DNA from: a virus
Length of the DNA stretch: 22,999 bases
Virus record (IMG/VR): IMGVR_UViG_3300008735_001284
Location: 1-22,999 of that record
Reading direction: 5' to 3' (one strand)
A model generated the notes under the pieces. The model saw only the letters and a program-made list of their open reading frames with translations. It searched no databases and was not told the origin of the DNA. The position numbers were made by a program, and so were the translations under genes. This document shows positions 2,990 through 20,185 of this stretch, one piece after another (position 1 is the first letter of the stretch; each line of letters opens with the position of its first letter).

Positions 2990-3424
2990 TTATACTGACT
3001 CTGCTAAACCACGACCAGGATGACCTTGTAAGAAAGCATCTACTTCAGATGGTCTAATTTGATGTACACTCCCATGTTCATCATATACAAGTTCTGTTTT
3101 TTCATCAGCAGTATCAATACCTGCGGCTTGTAGAAACATTTCTTTATTAAAGCGAGGATTATCCTTCTCAAACATTGCTACTAAACGACTCGCATAGTCA
3201 TCACGAGTATCATTATCACTAATACTTTTTAACATATCAGCAAATAATTCAAAATGTTGCTTGGTAAATGCTTCGTCTAATTGCTGGCCAGGCAACAATT
3301 CTCCATCTTCATCTAACTTAAGAGTTTGTTCTATTTCACCCTCTTCTAATATTGTTTCAGGATCAATTTTTTCTTTCGTAAGTAACTCTAACGTTGTTAG
3401 AATATCTTTCATCTGTGTGCTCAT
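2990..3424 (-). CDS. Hypothetical acidic protein, 144 aa
   Basis: This soluble, acidic 144-residue protein is rich in Glu/Asp and Leu. The N-terminal third is helical (MKDILTTLELLTKEKIDPET), the middle carries DEAFTKQHFELFADMLKSIS, and the C-terminus ends in SEVDAFLQGHPGRGLAESV. No cysteine pairs, signal peptide or catalytic motif are visible. The ATG at 3424 faces a plus-strand gene across a short divergent region containing late-type motifs on both strands (for example TATAAATG, 3443-3436 minus). It resembles small virion or head-assembly accessory proteins in general character only. I do not recognise a family. Confidence 0.6.
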   Translation of the reverse strand: MSTQMKDILTTLELLTKEKIDPETILEEGEIEQTLKLDEDGELLPGQQLDEAFTKQHFELFADMLKSISDNDTRDDYASRLVAMFEKDNPRFNKEMFLQAAGIDTADEKTELVYDEHGSVHQIRPSEVDAFLQGHPGRGLAESV

Positions 3425-3451
3425 AATAATGTTTCCATTTATATGTATTTA

Positions 3452-16212: not shown

Positions 16213-16794
16213 TTGCTACCTAAATTGAATAACTTTTTCATTGACCCTGATATTTGCTTTGACGTGAGCAAATTACAGGATGCATTGCGCGAAGTTGATT
16301 CGCGAGTCGCAAGACAATCTCCTTTAGGCAAAAGAGACATCAATGCTATTTGTCTAACACAAATTCCCGGTGATCCAAACTCTATCACAGGTGGTAATGT
16401 AAGAGGATTATTTTGGACACGCCCAACAAGCAGTGGTGAAGAGGTCCAACGAGAAAATCCAATAGACGAATCCCAATATACTGAGTTTGTTAAACTATTT
16501 GAAGATACTTACTTCAAAGAAGTATACGATACACTTATTCCCAATTATAAATTAGGCAGAGTAAGATTGCTTTGGAAAATGCCACGCACAACATTGAGTT
16601 GGCACAGGGATCCTGAACGCAGATTACACATACCTATCGTAACCAACCCAGGCGCACTAATGATTATTGATGATGAAGTAAAACATATGCCCGCAGATGG
16701 CAAAGTATGGATTACTGATAATACAAAATATCATAATGCGTTTAACGGAGGCGAGGAAGATCGCGTCCATTTAGTTGCTACAGTTATAGAATAA
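16213..16794 (+). CDS. Aspartyl/asparaginyl beta-hydroxylase-family 2OG oxygenase
   Basis: This 193-residue protein carries the family signature WKMPRTTLSWHRDPERRLHI then PIVTN. His131 and Asp133 form the HxD pair, R/HIPIVTN is the typical strand, MPADGKVWITDNTKYHNAFN supplies distal His174, and Arg184 in EEDRVHLVATVI is the 2OG anchor. It lacks any membrane segment, like bacterial and phage members. It probably hydroxylates Asp/Asn or a related group on a protein or small molecule. No ATG is available: the frame opens after a stop at 16195-16197 and the best start is TTG at 16213 (a second TTG lies at 16225). It is a lone plus-strand gene with its own late motif, convergent with the tmRNA. 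Confidence 0.8.
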   Translation: MLPKLNNFFIDPDICFDVSKLQDALREVDSRVARQSPLGKRDINAICLTQIPGDPNSITGGNVRGLFWTRPTSSGEEVQRENPIDESQYTEFVKLFEDTYFKEVYDTLIPNYKLGRVRLLWKMPRTTLSWHRDPERRLHIPIVTNPGALMIIDDEVKHMPADGKVWITDNTKYHNAFNGGEEDRVHLVATVIE

Positions 16795-16819
16795 GGAAAG
16801 GCCCTAAACGGGCCCTTCC
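16786..16819 (-). terminator. Probable terminator of the tmRNA transcript
   Basis: GGAAGGGCCC, loop GTTTA, GGGCCTTTCC forms a 10-base stem when read on the minus strand, with one G-U pair. On the plus strand that position would be an A-C mismatch, so the hairpin suits the minus (tmRNA) transcript. It is followed by TTATTCTAT, a moderate T-tract that overlaps the 3' end of the convergent plus-strand gene. Confidence 0.6.
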
Positions 16820-16825
16820 AAAAAA

Positions 16826-17002
16826 GCAGATTGGGTAACAAGGTATGCTCTATACCCCGGAATACTGCCGTGATTAAGCGGCTAATGCGTATTCGTAATA
16901 ATCGTCGTTTGCAATTATTTTAGTTTGCTGTTTTTTAACATGGAACTGCTCCCATGTGTCGTCCGTATATCGTCCTCACCCTGTCGAAGCCATGTCACCC
17001 CC
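16826..17002 (-). ncRNA. ssrA: tmRNA coding piece (permuted, two-piece ssrA)
   Basis: The minus strand begins GGGGGTGACATGGCTTCGAC at 17002, the standard tmRNA 5' end. Its first seven bases pair with CACCTCC of the acceptor piece at 17195, including a G3-U70 wobble, the alanyl-tRNA synthetase identity element. AGGGTG just after pairs with CATTCT of the acceptor piece (helix P2). A pseudoknot-like hairpin, ACATGG/CCATGT, precedes the tag frame at 16912-16874. After the tag, GGTAT/ATACC forms a further hairpin. The tmRNA rescues stalled ribosomes with SmpB. The gene order (acceptor piece first, coding piece second) is the circularly permuted form. The 3' end near 16826 is estimated from pairing and could be off by some bases. 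Confidence 0.9.
16874..16912 (-). other. tmRNA proteolysis-tag reading frame
   Basis: The frame opens at GCA AAC GAC and reads ANDDYYEYALAA, then TAA. The E. coli tag is ANDENYALAA, so the start (AND) and the degron (ALAA, read by ClpXP/ClpAP) are kept, with an aromatic/acidic middle. This confirms that the RNA is a tmRNA and predicts the tag added to stalled proteins. Confidence 0.92.
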
Positions 17003-17003
17003 G

Positions 17004-17147
17004 TCAAAAAAAGATTAAGTATACTATACCACCAATAATAATTATGTCGGCACAGATACTCCATGCGACATATATTTTAAACATATATTCTATAGCTTTC
17101 CTGAAAGGCCTTGGTAATGTTTTTATCTTGTTCCGGAGGAATCGCAT
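17004..17147 (-). CDS. Small membrane peptide inside the tmRNA intervening segment
   Basis: This 47-residue frame reads MRFLRNKIKTLPRPFRKAIE, then YMFKIYVAWSICAD and IIIIGGIVYLIFF. The basic N-terminal half (positive-inside) is followed by one strongly hydrophobic segment (about residues 26-47). GGAGG stands 8 bases before the ATG. The TGA (17006-17004) ends one base before the tmRNA coding piece begins, so the frame fills the intervening segment. It overlaps the 34-residue frame upstream by 71 bases. It resembles small phage holin-, antiholin- or regulatory-type membrane peptides in shape, but no homologue is recognised. Expression is not proven; the Shine-Dalgarno and its exact fit are the support. 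Confidence 0.5.
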   Translation of the reverse strand: MRFLRNKIKTLPRPFRKAIEYMFKIYVAWSICADIIIIGGIVYLIFF

Positions 17148-17181
17148 CGTCGCTTCCTCCTATCAATGTATTATAGTTCAT
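17077..17181 (-). CDS. Small acidic peptide inside the tmRNA intervening segment
   Basis: This 34-residue frame (MNYNTLIGGSDDAIPPEQDK then NITKAFQESYRIYV) starts 13 bases after the encoded CCA of the acceptor piece. AAAGGAG lies directly after that CCA, 6 bases before the ATG. If tmRNA processing cuts after CCA, the released fragment would begin with a ribosome-binding site. The peptide is soluble, with no recognised family. It overlaps the membrane-peptide frame in a different frame and may serve mainly to couple its translation. Confidence 0.42.
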   Translation of the reverse strand: MNYNTLIGGSDDAIPPEQDKNITKAFQESYRIYV

Positions 17182-17194
17182 TTTAATCTCCTTT

Positions 17195-17261
17195 TGGTGG
17201 AGGTGGTGGGGATCGAACCCACGTCCAGAATGCATATTGTCTACATCATACGACAATAAAG
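17195..17261 (-). ncRNA. ssrA: tmRNA acceptor piece (permuted, two-piece ssrA)
   Basis: On the minus strand the piece ends CACCTCC-A-CCA at 17195, with the CCA encoded. Before it is a perfect T arm (GTGGG, loop TTCGATC, CCCAC), and before that CATTCT, which pairs with AGGGTG of the coding piece. A hairpin (TATTGTC/GACAATA) lies at 17236-17258. The piece starts straight after the bL33 stop codon, so it is most likely made by processing of the operon mRNA. The 5' end is estimated. It lies 192 bases before the coding piece, as expected for a permuted ssrA gene. Confidence 0.88.
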
Positions 17262-17435
17262 TTACTTACTTATTTTCTTTTCTTCATATAAAACATGTTT
17301 GCGTACAACTGGGTCATACTTTTTTAATTTAAGTTTATTGCCACCCATCTTTCTTTTATTAACGGTTGTGGTATAATAATGCCCGGTACCAGCAGTTGAT
17401 ACTAATTTAATAATTGTAATATTTTTACTTGCCAT
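17262..17435 (-). CDS. rpmG: 50S ribosomal protein bL33
   Basis: This 57-residue protein begins [20 protein letters not shown], then [20 protein letters not shown] and [17 protein letters not shown]. It agrees nearly throughout with E. coli L33 (IKLVSSAGTGHFYTTT; LKKFDPVVRQHVIY) and has the family length. It has no cysteines, so it is the zinc-free form. bL33 sits near the 50S E site. The ATG overlaps the upstream stop by one base (TAATG) and the stop abuts the tmRNA acceptor piece. A phage copy could be incorporated into host ribosomes, alongside the phage bS21 at 21910. Confidence 0.93.
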
Positions 17436-17779
17436 TACCATGCATCCTTAAATTGTGGTTTAGCGAAATTATCATTTTCTATAACATGTTCTTTTACTTC
17501 TTCTTTATCACCATAAGATATATTTTGCGGTGGCACATCTACAGAACTTCCTGTAGTATAAAATCTTGATGCTGTTTGTACATCATCAAAACTTTGTGAT
17601 TTTTGTCCCATTGCTTTATCGAAAATGTCTTTATAGTCATTATAAATTTCCATATAGCTAGAAGGACCATATTTTTTCTCGGCCTCATCTGTGACAAACT
17701 TAACATACTCTGATGCTAAAGTCAAATCACCACCTGCTAATTTAAGACATTCTAATCTTATATGTGTTGAATCAATCAT
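17435..17779 (-). CDS. Hypothetical protein, 114 aa
   Basis: This soluble protein has a helical N-terminal half ([20 protein letters not shown], then [20 protein letters not shown]) and a polar, low-complexity C-terminal half ([20 protein letters not shown]). The first half resembles small helical phage proteins that begin with a conserved 'R.ECLKLA' motif, but I cannot name a family. It overlaps the upstream 53-residue gene by 4 bases (ATGA) and the bL33 start by one base, so it is translated within the same operon. Confidence 0.65.
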
Positions 17780-17972: not shown

Positions 17973-18275
17973 TTAATTATCTGCTTCTATTTTTACTTGT
18001 AACGGGTAATTATTGTTACGAGATAGTACAGTGGTTTCAATACCTTTTTGTTCTGCTATTTCATACGGCAATACTGCTACTATAGCAAACCCTTCTTGAT
18101 GTATTTTATGTGTCAAATCTTGTGCGGCATCAATGGCATGCATAAAAATAGACATTAAACAATTTACAACAAAATCCATTGGTGTAACATCATCATTAAT
18201 AAAAACTACCTTATACAAAGGTGGTTCTTTTAACTTTAAATTTTCTTCTATTTTAGTTGCAGTATCTGACATCAT
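17973..18275 (-). CDS. clpS: ClpS, adaptor of the ClpAP protease
   Basis: This 100-residue protein has the ClpS core: YKVVFINDDVTPMDFVVNCL (residues 21-40) matches E. coli [20 protein letters not shown]. Asn27, Asp28, Thr31 and Met33 form the N-degron pocket, and His59 in THKIHQEGFA closes it. ClpS delivers N-degron proteins to ClpA and at the same time reduces ClpAP breakdown of SsrA-tagged proteins. The N-terminal tail of about 19 residues, needed for action on ClpA, is present. The start overlaps the upstream stop (ATGATG; either ATG possible). Finding ClpS in the same operon as a tmRNA fits a combined effect on host proteolysis. Confidence 0.9.
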   Translation of the reverse strand: MMSDTATKIEENLKLKEPPLYKVVFINDDVTPMDFVVNCLMSIFMHAIDAAQDLTHKIHQEGFAIVAVLPYEIAEQKGIETTVLSRNNNYPLQVKIEADN

Positions 18276-18910
18276 TGTTGCTCATAATTCTTTTTTGGCC
18301 CTTCCATTAAGTCACGTAAATTATATACTATAAATTTTCCTGGATTACGTTGCCCTGCTCGTCCTTTATGTTTAGCGGCTCTCTTCCATTCTAAGACCAT
18401 TGGATTACCTTGTTCTCGTGCTTCTTTTGCTTGCTTTAACTTTTTCTGCAATTTTTTAGTATACGGTAATTTATATAATCGAGTATCTGTTTTACCTAAA
18501 TGTTTAACCCATAATTCAATAACTTTACCTTGTCTTTGGCCGTCCATTACAATTACTTTTCCAACAGGAATCGTAGGATAAGCATACCCTAGAACGTCAT
18601 TTAACTTATCCATTGTACTATATAATAAGAAAAAAAGCAAGGGAATTGTTAAGAATTTGATGTAAAGTTTCGCAGGAGTACGTATTAATATATAACTAAC
18701 AAGAATAATTAACAACACCGCAGTAATAAACTCAATATTAAACGCATATAGTATATCATACCAAGCATTCCATTCAAGTTTCTCATCACCTGCTATTGTG
18801 GAAAAATCTATTGCTTTTTCTTGTGCTGTTGCCATAATATTTGCCTCTGCATTGTTTTGATGATGACTTGCGTCTGTAATGTTTTGAGTTTCTTGTTGTT
18901 CATCAATCAT
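18272..18910 (-). CDS. Membrane protein of the proton-channel operon, 212 aa
   Basis: The protein starts MIDEQQETQNITDASHHQNN, a polar N-terminus of about 55 residues. Two adjacent membrane helices follow (about 58-102: AFNIEFITAVLLIILVSYIL and LYIKFLTIPLLFFLLYSTMD). The C-terminal half is very basic (KKLQKKLKQAKEAREQGNPM, AAKHKGRAGQRNPGKFIVYN) and may be cytoplasmic, perhaps nucleic-acid or ribosome binding; a short VGKVIVMDGQRQGKVIELWV resembles a KOW/SH3-type strand pair. The ATG at 18910 overlaps the upstream stop by one base; an ATG at 18922 is also possible. It follows the MotA/ExbB-like and ExbD-like genes in overlap and is probably part of the same complex. No family is recognised. 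Confidence 0.65.
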   Translation of the reverse strand: MIDEQQETQNITDASHHQNNAEANIMATAQEKAIDFSTIAGDEKLEWNAWYDILYAFNIEFITAVLLIILVSYILIRTPAKLYIKFLTIPLLFFLLYSTMDKLNDVLGYAYPTIPVGKVIVMDGQRQGKVIELWVKHLGKTDTRLYKLPYTKKLQKKLKQAKEAREQGNPMVLEWKRAAKHKGRAGQRNPGKFIVYNLRDLMEGPKKNYEQQ

Positions 18911-19734
18911 CAATATCCCCATAAGTGTAAAAATTCTTCTTTAATACCAGCAAAATTGCCAGCAGGATCAGGGGGCACTGGTGACTCAGGTGTTTGGTCT
19001 CCATGTGTACGTTCAATTAAATTTCCGTCAGGGCCTTCATGATATGTTGATTGCCACCTTTGGTCATATACAAATGGTGTCATATATGTATTAACATCTG
19101 TTATATGATAAATCTTTTCTTCAGTTAGTTCTCCACCTTTTCGTTTAGTATATGTTTCTTCTACTACAGTAAAATTAAACGCTGTTTTTTCTTGCCCTGG
19201 TTTAACCAAATCAAATTTAATTAAACCTTTAGATTTATATGGATTAATTCTAATTAATTCCACTGTGACAGGTGCAGTTATTTCTTCTTGTGGTACATCT
19301 GCAGTAGAGCCTTGCCTATACGCATAATAATGAATATTAACAGTCCATTCGCCTGGAAGGAAACCACGTATTGTAACAATCTCTTGATTCATATCACTTG
19401 TTACATAACGACCATCTGCTAATTGAACAGTGTCATTACTAGTACCTAGATCATCTCGATCCAAATGCATCAGTCCTCTATCCCTGCCTCTAAAACTAAC
19501 AATTTGTCCTAATGGATCTCTAACCCACATGTCAATATCTTTAGACGATCCTTCAGGCCAAGTTAATATGAGCAATATCTCTGCCTTTGGATCTATTTTT
19601 TTATCTGTGGGGACAGGAGGTGCTATAAGCAAGAATGCTATAACAAAAAGGAACACAAAACCGATTAAAGTATTAAACAATAAATCAGTAAATCCTAATC
19701 CTGATAAATATCTGTTACGCTTTCCTGTGGTCAT
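18910..19734 (-). CDS. ExbD/MotB-like membrane protein with periplasmic beta domain
   Basis: This 274-residue protein has one N-terminal membrane helix, GFTDLLFNTLIGFVFLFVIA (about residues 14-33), preceded by a basic cytoplasmic tail. Asp17 sits at the start of the helix exactly as the proton-carrying Asp of MotB/ExbD/TolR. The large periplasmic part has SKDIDMWVRDPLGQIVSFRG and LDRDDLGTSND, then FLPGEWTVNIHYYAYRQG, which resembles the DUF2135/YfaP-type beta-sandwich ('DIDlhV.dP.G', 'pG.Y.v.v.yy'). No OmpA-like peptidoglycan domain is seen. It overlaps the end of the ExbB-like gene by 20 bases. With that gene it should form an ion-driven motor-type complex. Partner and task unknown. Confidence 0.7.
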   Translation of the reverse strand: MTTGKRNRYLSGLGFTDLLFNTLIGFVFLFVIAFLLIAPPVPTDKKIDPKAEILLILTWPEGSSKDIDMWVRDPLGQIVSFRGRDRGLMHLDRDDLGTSNDTVQLADGRYVTSDMNQEIVTIRGFLPGEWTVNIHYYAYRQGSTADVPQEEITAPVTVELIRINPYKSKGLIKFDLVKPGQEKTAFNFTVVEETYTKRKGGELTEEKIYHITDVNTYMTPFVYDQRWQSTYHEGPDGNLIERTHGDQTPESPVPPDPAGNFAGIKEEFLHLWGY

Positions 19735-20185
19735 ATTCTAAGTTCATCAATTGTAATTTGGTAATAATTGAGCACACAAGGCCTACCAATGTAGTTGTTA
19801 ACGCGGTACTCATTCCCGCGGCCATATCTCGTATAACTTCCTTGGCTTGTCCTATATTAGTTAAATCTAAGTCAGCAAAAGCGCCACCTAGCATTATGAT
19901 AAAACCTGTTACTGTACCAATTAACCCCAAAGTTATCATTGATTCAGCAAAGAACCATGATACTTCTATTGTGCGGAAATTTAAAGGTCGGCTTTTATAG
20001 AGTTTGTATGATTGATGTCCTAAATGGGCAGTTAAACCATAAAACAGTATTAATATACCAAAGCTTATCTTGGTTTGGTCTAAATGCCAGAGGGTGACCC
20101 ACATATCGAAATAATGTACTACTGCCGTTGAGGCAAGTACAGCACATGTTATTAGCCACCACTTGAGAAAGCAATTTGATCGCAT
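19715..20185 (-). CDS. MotA/TolQ/ExbB-family proton channel protein
   Basis: This 156-residue protein has four predicted membrane helices. The last two carry the family signature: FFAESMITLGLIGTVTGFII (about residues 78-97) corresponds to the 'LGLLGTVxG' helix, and AAGMSTALTTTLVGLVCSII (about 120-139) to the 'GlxxALxtTxxGL' helix. The polar Thr residues that line the ion path are present. It is short compared with ExbB (244) and TolQ (230), with a small cytoplasmic loop. These proteins form pentamers around an ExbD/MotB dimer and use the proton gradient to do work. AGGAG precedes the ATG, and a CTAAATA late motif lies upstream. It leads the operon that ends in the tmRNA. Confidence 0.8.
   Translation of the reverse strand: MRSNCFLKWWLITCAVLASTAVVHYFDMWVTLWHLDQTKISFGILILFYGLTAHLGHQSYKLYKSRPLNFRTIEVSWFFAESMITLGLIGTVTGFIIMLGGAFADLDLTNIGQAKEVIRDMAAGMSTALTTTLVGLVCSIITKLQLMNLEYDHRKA

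Follow-up and report, generated by a model that had tools for sequence, protein, structure and literature searches.

The spacers, or intervening segments (IVSs), that separate the two pieces of permuted tmRNAs are regarded as waste. Permuted tRNAs and tmRNAs are treated in the accessible part of PMC3978253, and the accessible part of an article on the tmRNA database (PMC11915505) counts 36 intron forms, out of 883, that carry a homing endonuclease gene. These group I intron tmRNAs resemble the locus described here in carrying a protein gene within a tmRNA gene, but according to the same text (PMC11915505) the site is the T loop rather than the spacer of a permuted tmRNA. The article also records, in the part accessible, a tRNA-Ala or a repetitive element in permuted tmRNA spacers, one sequence each; there too the IVS carries cargo, but that cargo is an RNA gene or a repeat, and no protein gene is mentioned in that part. 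In the open-licence full-text literature that we searched, we came upon no description of a protein gene within the spacer of a permuted tmRNA.

The two ends of the hok mRNA pair with each other. As described in the accessible text of PMC11228461, hok encodes a small membrane protein with a shut ribosome-binding site that requires the leader frame mok to open it, and the mRNA is activated by processing of its 3′ end. The two-frame cassette described below (ORF1 and ORF2) is similar in having an overlapping leader and a putatively locked ribosome-binding site, a likeness that is drawn from sequence only and is weaker in the set of copies outside tmRNA genes; unlike the hok/mok mRNA, the RNA that carries ORF2 is a tmRNA precursor. 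ORF2 showed no similarity that would suggest kinship with hok/mok in Pfam, PHROGs (best E 0.048) or PDB (at E 1), and on these comparisons the relation is one of resemblance, not of kinship.

The locus lies in a 22,999-base virus record (IMGVR_UViG_3300008735_001284), which we analyzed as one window (Table 1). For a tmRNA to be called permuted, we looked for an acceptor piece upstream of the coding piece and a score above the curated threshold of one of three Rfam families (RF04321, RF01849 or RF01850). The window has this arrangement on its minus strand, scoring 119.7 bits with RF04321 (17255-16874; gathering threshold 47) and 99.6 bits with the beta-type model RF01850 (17306-16792). The coding piece begins with GGGGGTG at 17002, and the tag reads ANDDYYEYALAA (16912-16874). 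ARAGORN misreads this region (16640-17734), calling two tmRNAs with implausible tags, and other phage tmRNAs may be hidden from annotation by long, cargo-bearing spacers. Upstream of the tmRNA and on the same strand, a ClpS adaptor gene (17973-18275) and the bL33 gene form a phage protein-synthesis and degradation cluster; a MotA/TolQ/ExbB-type gene falls within 18272-20185 (Pfam 1.3e-6) and is followed by two genes that match nothing in Pfam.

Table 1. Features of the permuted tmRNA locus and its two-frame cassette, in window coordinates.
Feature	Position	Strand	Basis
tmRNA acceptor piece, tRNA-like 3′ part ending in encoded CCA	17195..17255	-	Rfam RF04321, sequence
Intervening segment (IVS), 192 nt	17003..17194	-	between CCA and GGGGGTG
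tmRNA coding piece, 5′ end to tag stop	16874..17002	-	Rfam, sequence
IVS base helix, 5′ strand, A+AAAGGAGATTA; includes ORF1 ribosome-binding site	17184..17195	-	12/12 pairs with 17017-17006, predicted fold
IVS base helix, 3′ strand, TAATCTTTTTTT; codes ORF2 C-terminus, reaches into stop codon	17006..17017	-	pairing, covariation, fold
ORF1, 34 aa, leader frame overlapping ORF2	17077..17181	-	recurrence of frame, start and ribosome-binding site
ORF2, 47 aa, predicted single-helix membrane protein	17004..17147	-	relatives, pN/pS, hydropathy
ORF2 ribosome-binding site GGAGGAA, 5′ arm of putative locking hairpin	17154..17160	-	pairs with 17141-17135
UUCCUCC, 3′ arm of putative locking hairpin, just within ORF2	17135..17141	-	predicted fold, permutation test
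Ribosomal protein bL33 gene, directly upstream of tmRNA	17262..17435	-	Pfam PF00471, 1.6e-14

Four other contigs carry an IVS identical to that of the window and are therefore uninformative about selection, but a T4-type major capsid protein is encoded by two of them, which are 235 kb and 158 kb long (2 positives among 26 records tested, the remainder mostly short), on which basis we assign the window to a T4-like phage, very likely its true source. A blastn search of the tmRNA region against deposited phages gave no match. A diverged relative, L066 (loci are given L numbers throughout), has an IVS of the same length in a syntenic setting: its bL33 is 65% identical over 52 residues to that of the window, and the next gene 36% over 106.

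Both frames that a preliminary description had placed in the 192-nt spacer are present exactly as it gave them, in position, ribosome-binding sites and stop. The 47-codon frame, ORF2, has GGAGG 8 nt ahead of its ATG and ends with a TGA one base short of GGGGGTG. The proposal that it encodes a basic region plus one membrane helix agrees with prediction, the N-terminus being basic (net +7 over residues 1-25) and followed by a single hydrophobic stretch (hydropathy 2.24 over its best 19 residues, starting at residue 27). In L066 the frame is intact and its product is 66% identical to that of the window. Further relatives came from IMG/VR by a two-row profile (27 relatives) and by a profile lacking the C-terminus (the best 80 of 273). 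We read 103 of these 107 loci (L133, L134 and L138 were omitted as copies, L207 runs off its contig, and some contigs occur in both scans): 57 lie in an IVS, on both alpha- and beta-type tmRNAs, and 46 lie outside. We refer to these as nested and free copies; among the 27 plus best 80 of 273 relatives they represent 30 and 31 distinct proteins, respectively, with the L229 group counted as nested. A short basic or amphipathic start precedes the pattern KWM(F/L)KAYIxWSICADIxLxGGIVYLIFF, from which some C-termini differ, and all 60 proteins of at least 36 residues have the hydrophobic stretch (best 19-residue mean 1.5-2.5).

Purifying selection acts in one frame only, that of ORF2, in nested and free copies alike. 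Over 61 distinct core sequences, pN/pS in the ORF2 frame was 0.188 for nested copies (166 pairs) and 0.165 for free ones (103 pairs), taken as raw proportions, uncorrected for multiple hits, from pairs less than 25% different, the pairs and clusters not being independent; the two remaining frames of these sequences gave 1.5-2.3 (nested 1.5 and 2.1). The A1 and A4 scans select patterned residues, so the conservation of IVYLIFF and Y.xWSIxAD is partly search-made, and without the codons used to find the loci the values were 0.311 and 0.243. That the frames are open by chance, or through conservation of the RNA loop, is hardly credible given this confinement of third-position bias to the ORF2 frame: free copies keep the protein with different codons and stops, and of 50 long alpha-type IVS clusters 17 hold an ORF led by a ribosome-binding site against 1.08 expected (among the matches listed). 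One feature does fit such a reading, in that the TGA of ORF2 sits in an IVS end (TTTTGAT or similar) shared with phage IVSs that lack an ORF, and the position of the stop is therefore partly determined by the tmRNA. That the spacer harbors a conserved protein-coding gene, as the preliminary description implied, is close to certain on the comparison of relatives, and the frame conservation that it asked for holds for ORF2 in L066 and beyond.

ORF2 has no match above the cut-off in Pfam, none in PDB at E 1 and a best E of 0.048 in PHROGs, and its small-protein family is missing from both Pfam and PHROGs. The Pfam family DUF2542 (E 0.011; 16.7 bits, under the cut-off of 25) was dropped. One contig scan of bacterial genomes with the pattern GIVYLIFF, which passes over families ending otherwise, found no relatives; its sole match, L161, was discarded, agreeing only in the last residues, at the end of another frame. 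Searches of deposited phages by tblastn gave either no match or only chance-level ones (E about 2-10), although the low-complexity filter may hide short hydrophobic queries. The suggestion that ORF2 may be a holin or antiholin in particular gained no support: it matches no holin family, and the neighbors with matches are bL33 and ClpS rather than a lysis cassette. Its product would most likely act at the host membrane during infection.

An open frame in a stable-RNA spacer has a precedent in Coxiella, where the accessible part of PMC4990558 describes the S23p ORF of a 23S rRNA spacer as apparently untranslated in vivo, excised by RNase III and a case of reductive evolution. Both there and in the window, a protein frame lies in the excised spacer of a stable RNA (PMC4990558, same part), and this general layout, together with the degraded look of the L229 group, would be expected if the nested gene were a decaying selfish insert. 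We consider that very improbable, as ORF2 is under purifying selection, has no nuclease or transposase match, and is full-length with its usual start in all but one of the 30 distinct nested proteins, a count that favors intact copies because the loci were found by similarity. The purifying selection and the leader frame also set it apart from the S23p ORF. In the L229 group itself (L229, L232, L233, L234 and L237), the nested frame occupies a longer IVS, lacks the usual ORF2 start, has a changed C-terminus and stops 12 nt before the coding piece; the cassette is perhaps decaying within these spacers, and their state indicates that ORF2 decay does occur.

The tmRNA around ORF2 is intact, all 21 nested records tested scoring above the cut-off of RF04321, as against a permuted tmRNA above cut-off in 4 of 29 non-nested records, many of them fragments. 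Among nested loci assigned by the type models, the window, L066 and L236 are beta, and L135, L149, L153, L172, L178, L229 and L240 are alpha. Some free copies lie near a tmRNA, ORF2 ending 43 nt upstream of it in L183, 173 nt in L201 and 450 nt in L189; a weak match in the L190 record was rejected, being tRNA-end-like on reading. On a protein tree of 60 proteins and 40 columns, the best arrangement requires 11 changes between the nested and free states and well-supported branches force at least 4, many forks being unresolved and the bootstrap not settled. Closely similar pairs in opposite states include L239/L204 (89% identical), L172/L183 (85%) and L136/L137 (81%). Cis-regulatory RNAs lie close behind some of these phage tmRNAs, with a manA RNA in L183 (1813-1987) and in L172 (2807-3015).

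The ends of the spacer are predicted to form a base helix, and in nested copies the letters of this helix serve two codes. When the first 12 bases of IVSs of at least 40 nt, nested and plain, were compared with the last bases, the two ends of the same IVS paired at 10.15 of 12 positions compared to 6.63 for mismatched ends (120 distinct ends); many standard kinds of pair occur at most positions, and the helix is therefore backed by covariation. In nested copies the strand AAAGGAGATT doubles as the ribosome-binding site of ORF1 and the strand AATCTTTTTTT as the end of ORF2. The acceptor pattern captured 18 of the distinct nested ORF2 ends, of which 16 pair at 8 or more positions, the exceptions being L145 and L172 at 5 of 12. 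Those two have IVSs of about 264 and 295 nt, in which ~100 nt of additional sequence lies between CCA and the cassette, and the base helix has been lost while the cassette is kept. In L183 the helix, TAAGGAGATTGG with CCAATCTCTTTA, closes a gene-free spacer. In the distinct YL[IV]FF endings, C is the third base of the Ile/Val codon in 12 of 14 nested cases vs 0 of 5 free ones (Fisher p 0.0018), a choice demanded in nested copies by helix pairing, and the stops of the same endings are TGA in 13 of the 14 nested and TAA in 4 of the 5 free. At the level of sequence, this codon choice shows the demands of RNA helix and protein acting at once.

The second frame, ORF1, has its ribosome-binding site, AAAGGAG, directly after the acceptor CCA. 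We scored an ORF1-type leader where the frame one base before that of ORF2 had a start with a ribosome-binding site and at least 25 nt of overlap into ORF2, and found it in 23 of the 25 nested clusters and in 15 of the 23 free ones; shuffles of the upstream bases lead one to expect 1.07 and 0.62. (L212, which has no ATG giving 35-60 aa, is omitted from this count, and L147 was scored as lacking ORF1 solely because its leader site is GAAGA.) When ORF2 was recoded behind the real upstream bases, 17.75 of the 25 nested clusters and 9.57 of the 23 free ones still scored; an overlapping frame by itself therefore says little, and the argument for ORF1 is carried by the sequence ahead of ORF2. Of the two overlapping genes originally proposed, the pairing of frames stands, as they recur together, whereas the second protein does not: no similarity is detectable between the ORF1 peptides of the window and L066, and on that ground we rejected ORF1 as a conserved protein. 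A functional ORF1 peptide, which would make the pair two overlapping genes, is in our estimate unlikely. It would explain why the frame recurs in register with its own ribosome-binding site and why many copies have the acidic residues D-E-E-P-x-S in common; these shared residues, however, coincide by eye with the ribosome-binding site and first codons of ORF2 read in the other frame, the window and L066 peptides are dissimilar, and the frame is absent from 8 of the 23 free clusters.

A role for ORF1 in opening ORF2 is suggested instead by the predicted hairpin, which encloses the ORF2 AUG. In nested clusters, the observed mean stem score was matched in 0 of 2000 partner permutations. The free set gave a weaker signal: 57 of 2000 for all free clusters, 269 of 2000 (not significant) for those with ORF1 and 1257 of 2000 for those without. 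Stem scores averaged 15.0 in the 38 clusters with ORF1; the 10 that lack it, two of them nested, averaged 10.5 (p 6e-5). The predicted fold of the window's precursor has a z of -4.1, with both the locking hairpin and the base helix present in the MFE structure. ORF1 is likely, on this pattern, to be a leader that opens ORF2.

The spacer also holds cargo unrelated to ORF2. Viral contigs were sampled with an alpha-type acceptor pattern that ignores the spacer, giving at least 120 loci; a coding piece was matched in 116 of 120, and two of the other four show a variant by eye. The expectation that permuted tmRNA spacers are short holds only in part, since the IVSs of these 116 loci, among the matches listed, measured anywhere between 4 and 499 nt. 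Eleven of the 116 (again among the matches listed) have an ORF2-type gene. The long-IVS excess cited above concerns clusters with an IVS of at least 90 nt and an ORF of at least 30 codons, compared with dinucleotide shuffles; leaving out the ORF2 type, it is still 12 of 42 against 0.84 expected among the matches listed, and most of these led ORFs are unrelated to ORF2. One, in L263, encodes a DUF6356 protein (Pfam 2.7e-8), and some stop inside the coding piece, with the stop ending 13 or 33 nt in. A family with the pattern ...ICINNYSxxHA... (L261, L264, L345, L349, L350 and L352) likewise stops inside the coding piece, and its six distinct members give a pN/pS of 0.33. In L068, a locus obtained with the first acceptor pattern, a 454-nt IVS on the minus strand contains a whole staphylococcal-nuclease-like gene (Pfam 2.2e-11), and the tmRNA is nevertheless recognized by Rfam, over a span of 636 nt. 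A frame with the pattern GRNVHG..PPEWYYTENEW.R..G.G..PPER fills the spacer in L003, L009, L014, L026, L027, L044, L056, L067, L086 and L090; pN/pS is 0.49 over 10 distinct sequences, and in the 6 loci that we checked no stop interrupts the frame along the acceptor piece. It may overlap the tmRNA itself.

The explanation that we find probable is that a recurrent two-frame cassette, found in and out of tmRNA genes, occupies the loop between the permuted tmRNA pieces, and that the transcript is a dual-use RNA with a leader-gated ORF2. The hairpin around the AUG would shut the ribosome-binding site of ORF2, so that ribosomes would have to translate ORF1 first, melting the hairpin. In the folded precursor, pairing to the 3′ end of the IVS would occupy the ORF1 site in turn; if that helix were cut or opened during tmRNA maturation, or if translation preceded folding, ORF1 and then ORF2 could be made. 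Only one base separates the stop of ORF2 from the 5′ end of the coding piece, so cleavage at that end would yield an IVS messenger with its stop still in place. One phage transcript thus seems to serve as both tmRNA and messenger, and it is a fair guess that maturation of the tmRNA governs the messenger or sets it free.

A rival account has, in our judgment, not quite even chances: ORF2 is real, but the IVS is merely a tolerated parking place in a packed genome, the gene being translated from uncut precursor or breakdown products and maturation playing no regulatory role. ORF2 copies do exist outside tmRNAs, the nested/free changes on the tree fit such an account, and the same slot is used by unrelated genes, several of which stop inside the coding piece, so that only an uncut precursor would let ribosomes reach their stop. 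The retention in nested copies of a helix pairing the ORF1 ribosome-binding site with the end of ORF2 speaks against it, an objection softened by the gene-free spacer of L183, where the same helix occurs and may thus serve maturation alone. At the other extreme, the precursor could be a deliberate bifunctional RNA with maturation as the switch of a self-limiting circuit and the spacer as a general cargo slot, which we regard as doubtful. In such a scheme the closing helix of the uncut RNA would shut the leader's ribosome-binding site and cutting would free a short messenger for the membrane peptide, whose dose would consequently track the rate of tmRNA production. Where a nested frame runs into the tmRNA, cutting would yield a stop-less messenger, and the newborn tmRNA would tag and remove the peptide; trans-translation represses the arfA mRNA, which has no stop (PMC10107115, accessible part), and this sets a precedent for stop-less nested frames. 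The spacer would then hold small infection genes across several phage groups.

Under the leader-gated reading that we prefer, a ribosome-rescue RNA would double as a messenger. A protein gene is kept by selection in the tmRNA spacers of many phages, in letters that also hold the RNA's base helix, and this may account for such genes and their tmRNAs having escaped annotation.

The cultured phage Melnitz (L159, MZ577097.1; OM43 host) offers a system in which the coupling of tmRNA maturation to protein output could be tested. The accessible part of PMC9004378 says no more of its tmRNA than that it stands under a glutamine riboswitch. It is a permuted tmRNA like that of the window, of the same RNA class by Rfam and with a spacer closed, by eye, by a base helix. 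Its spacer contains a 41-codon frame starting at 3100 with a GGAG leader (MFKWLSKTRLVVITRDYF...), which the record leaves unannotated, giving only the tmRNA there. This frame differs from ORF2 and has relatives in L275 and L330, the three pairs giving pN/pS values of 0.112/0.283, 0.228/0.726 and 0.155/0.611. The known glutamine riboswitch lies behind the tmRNA, at 3402-3450.
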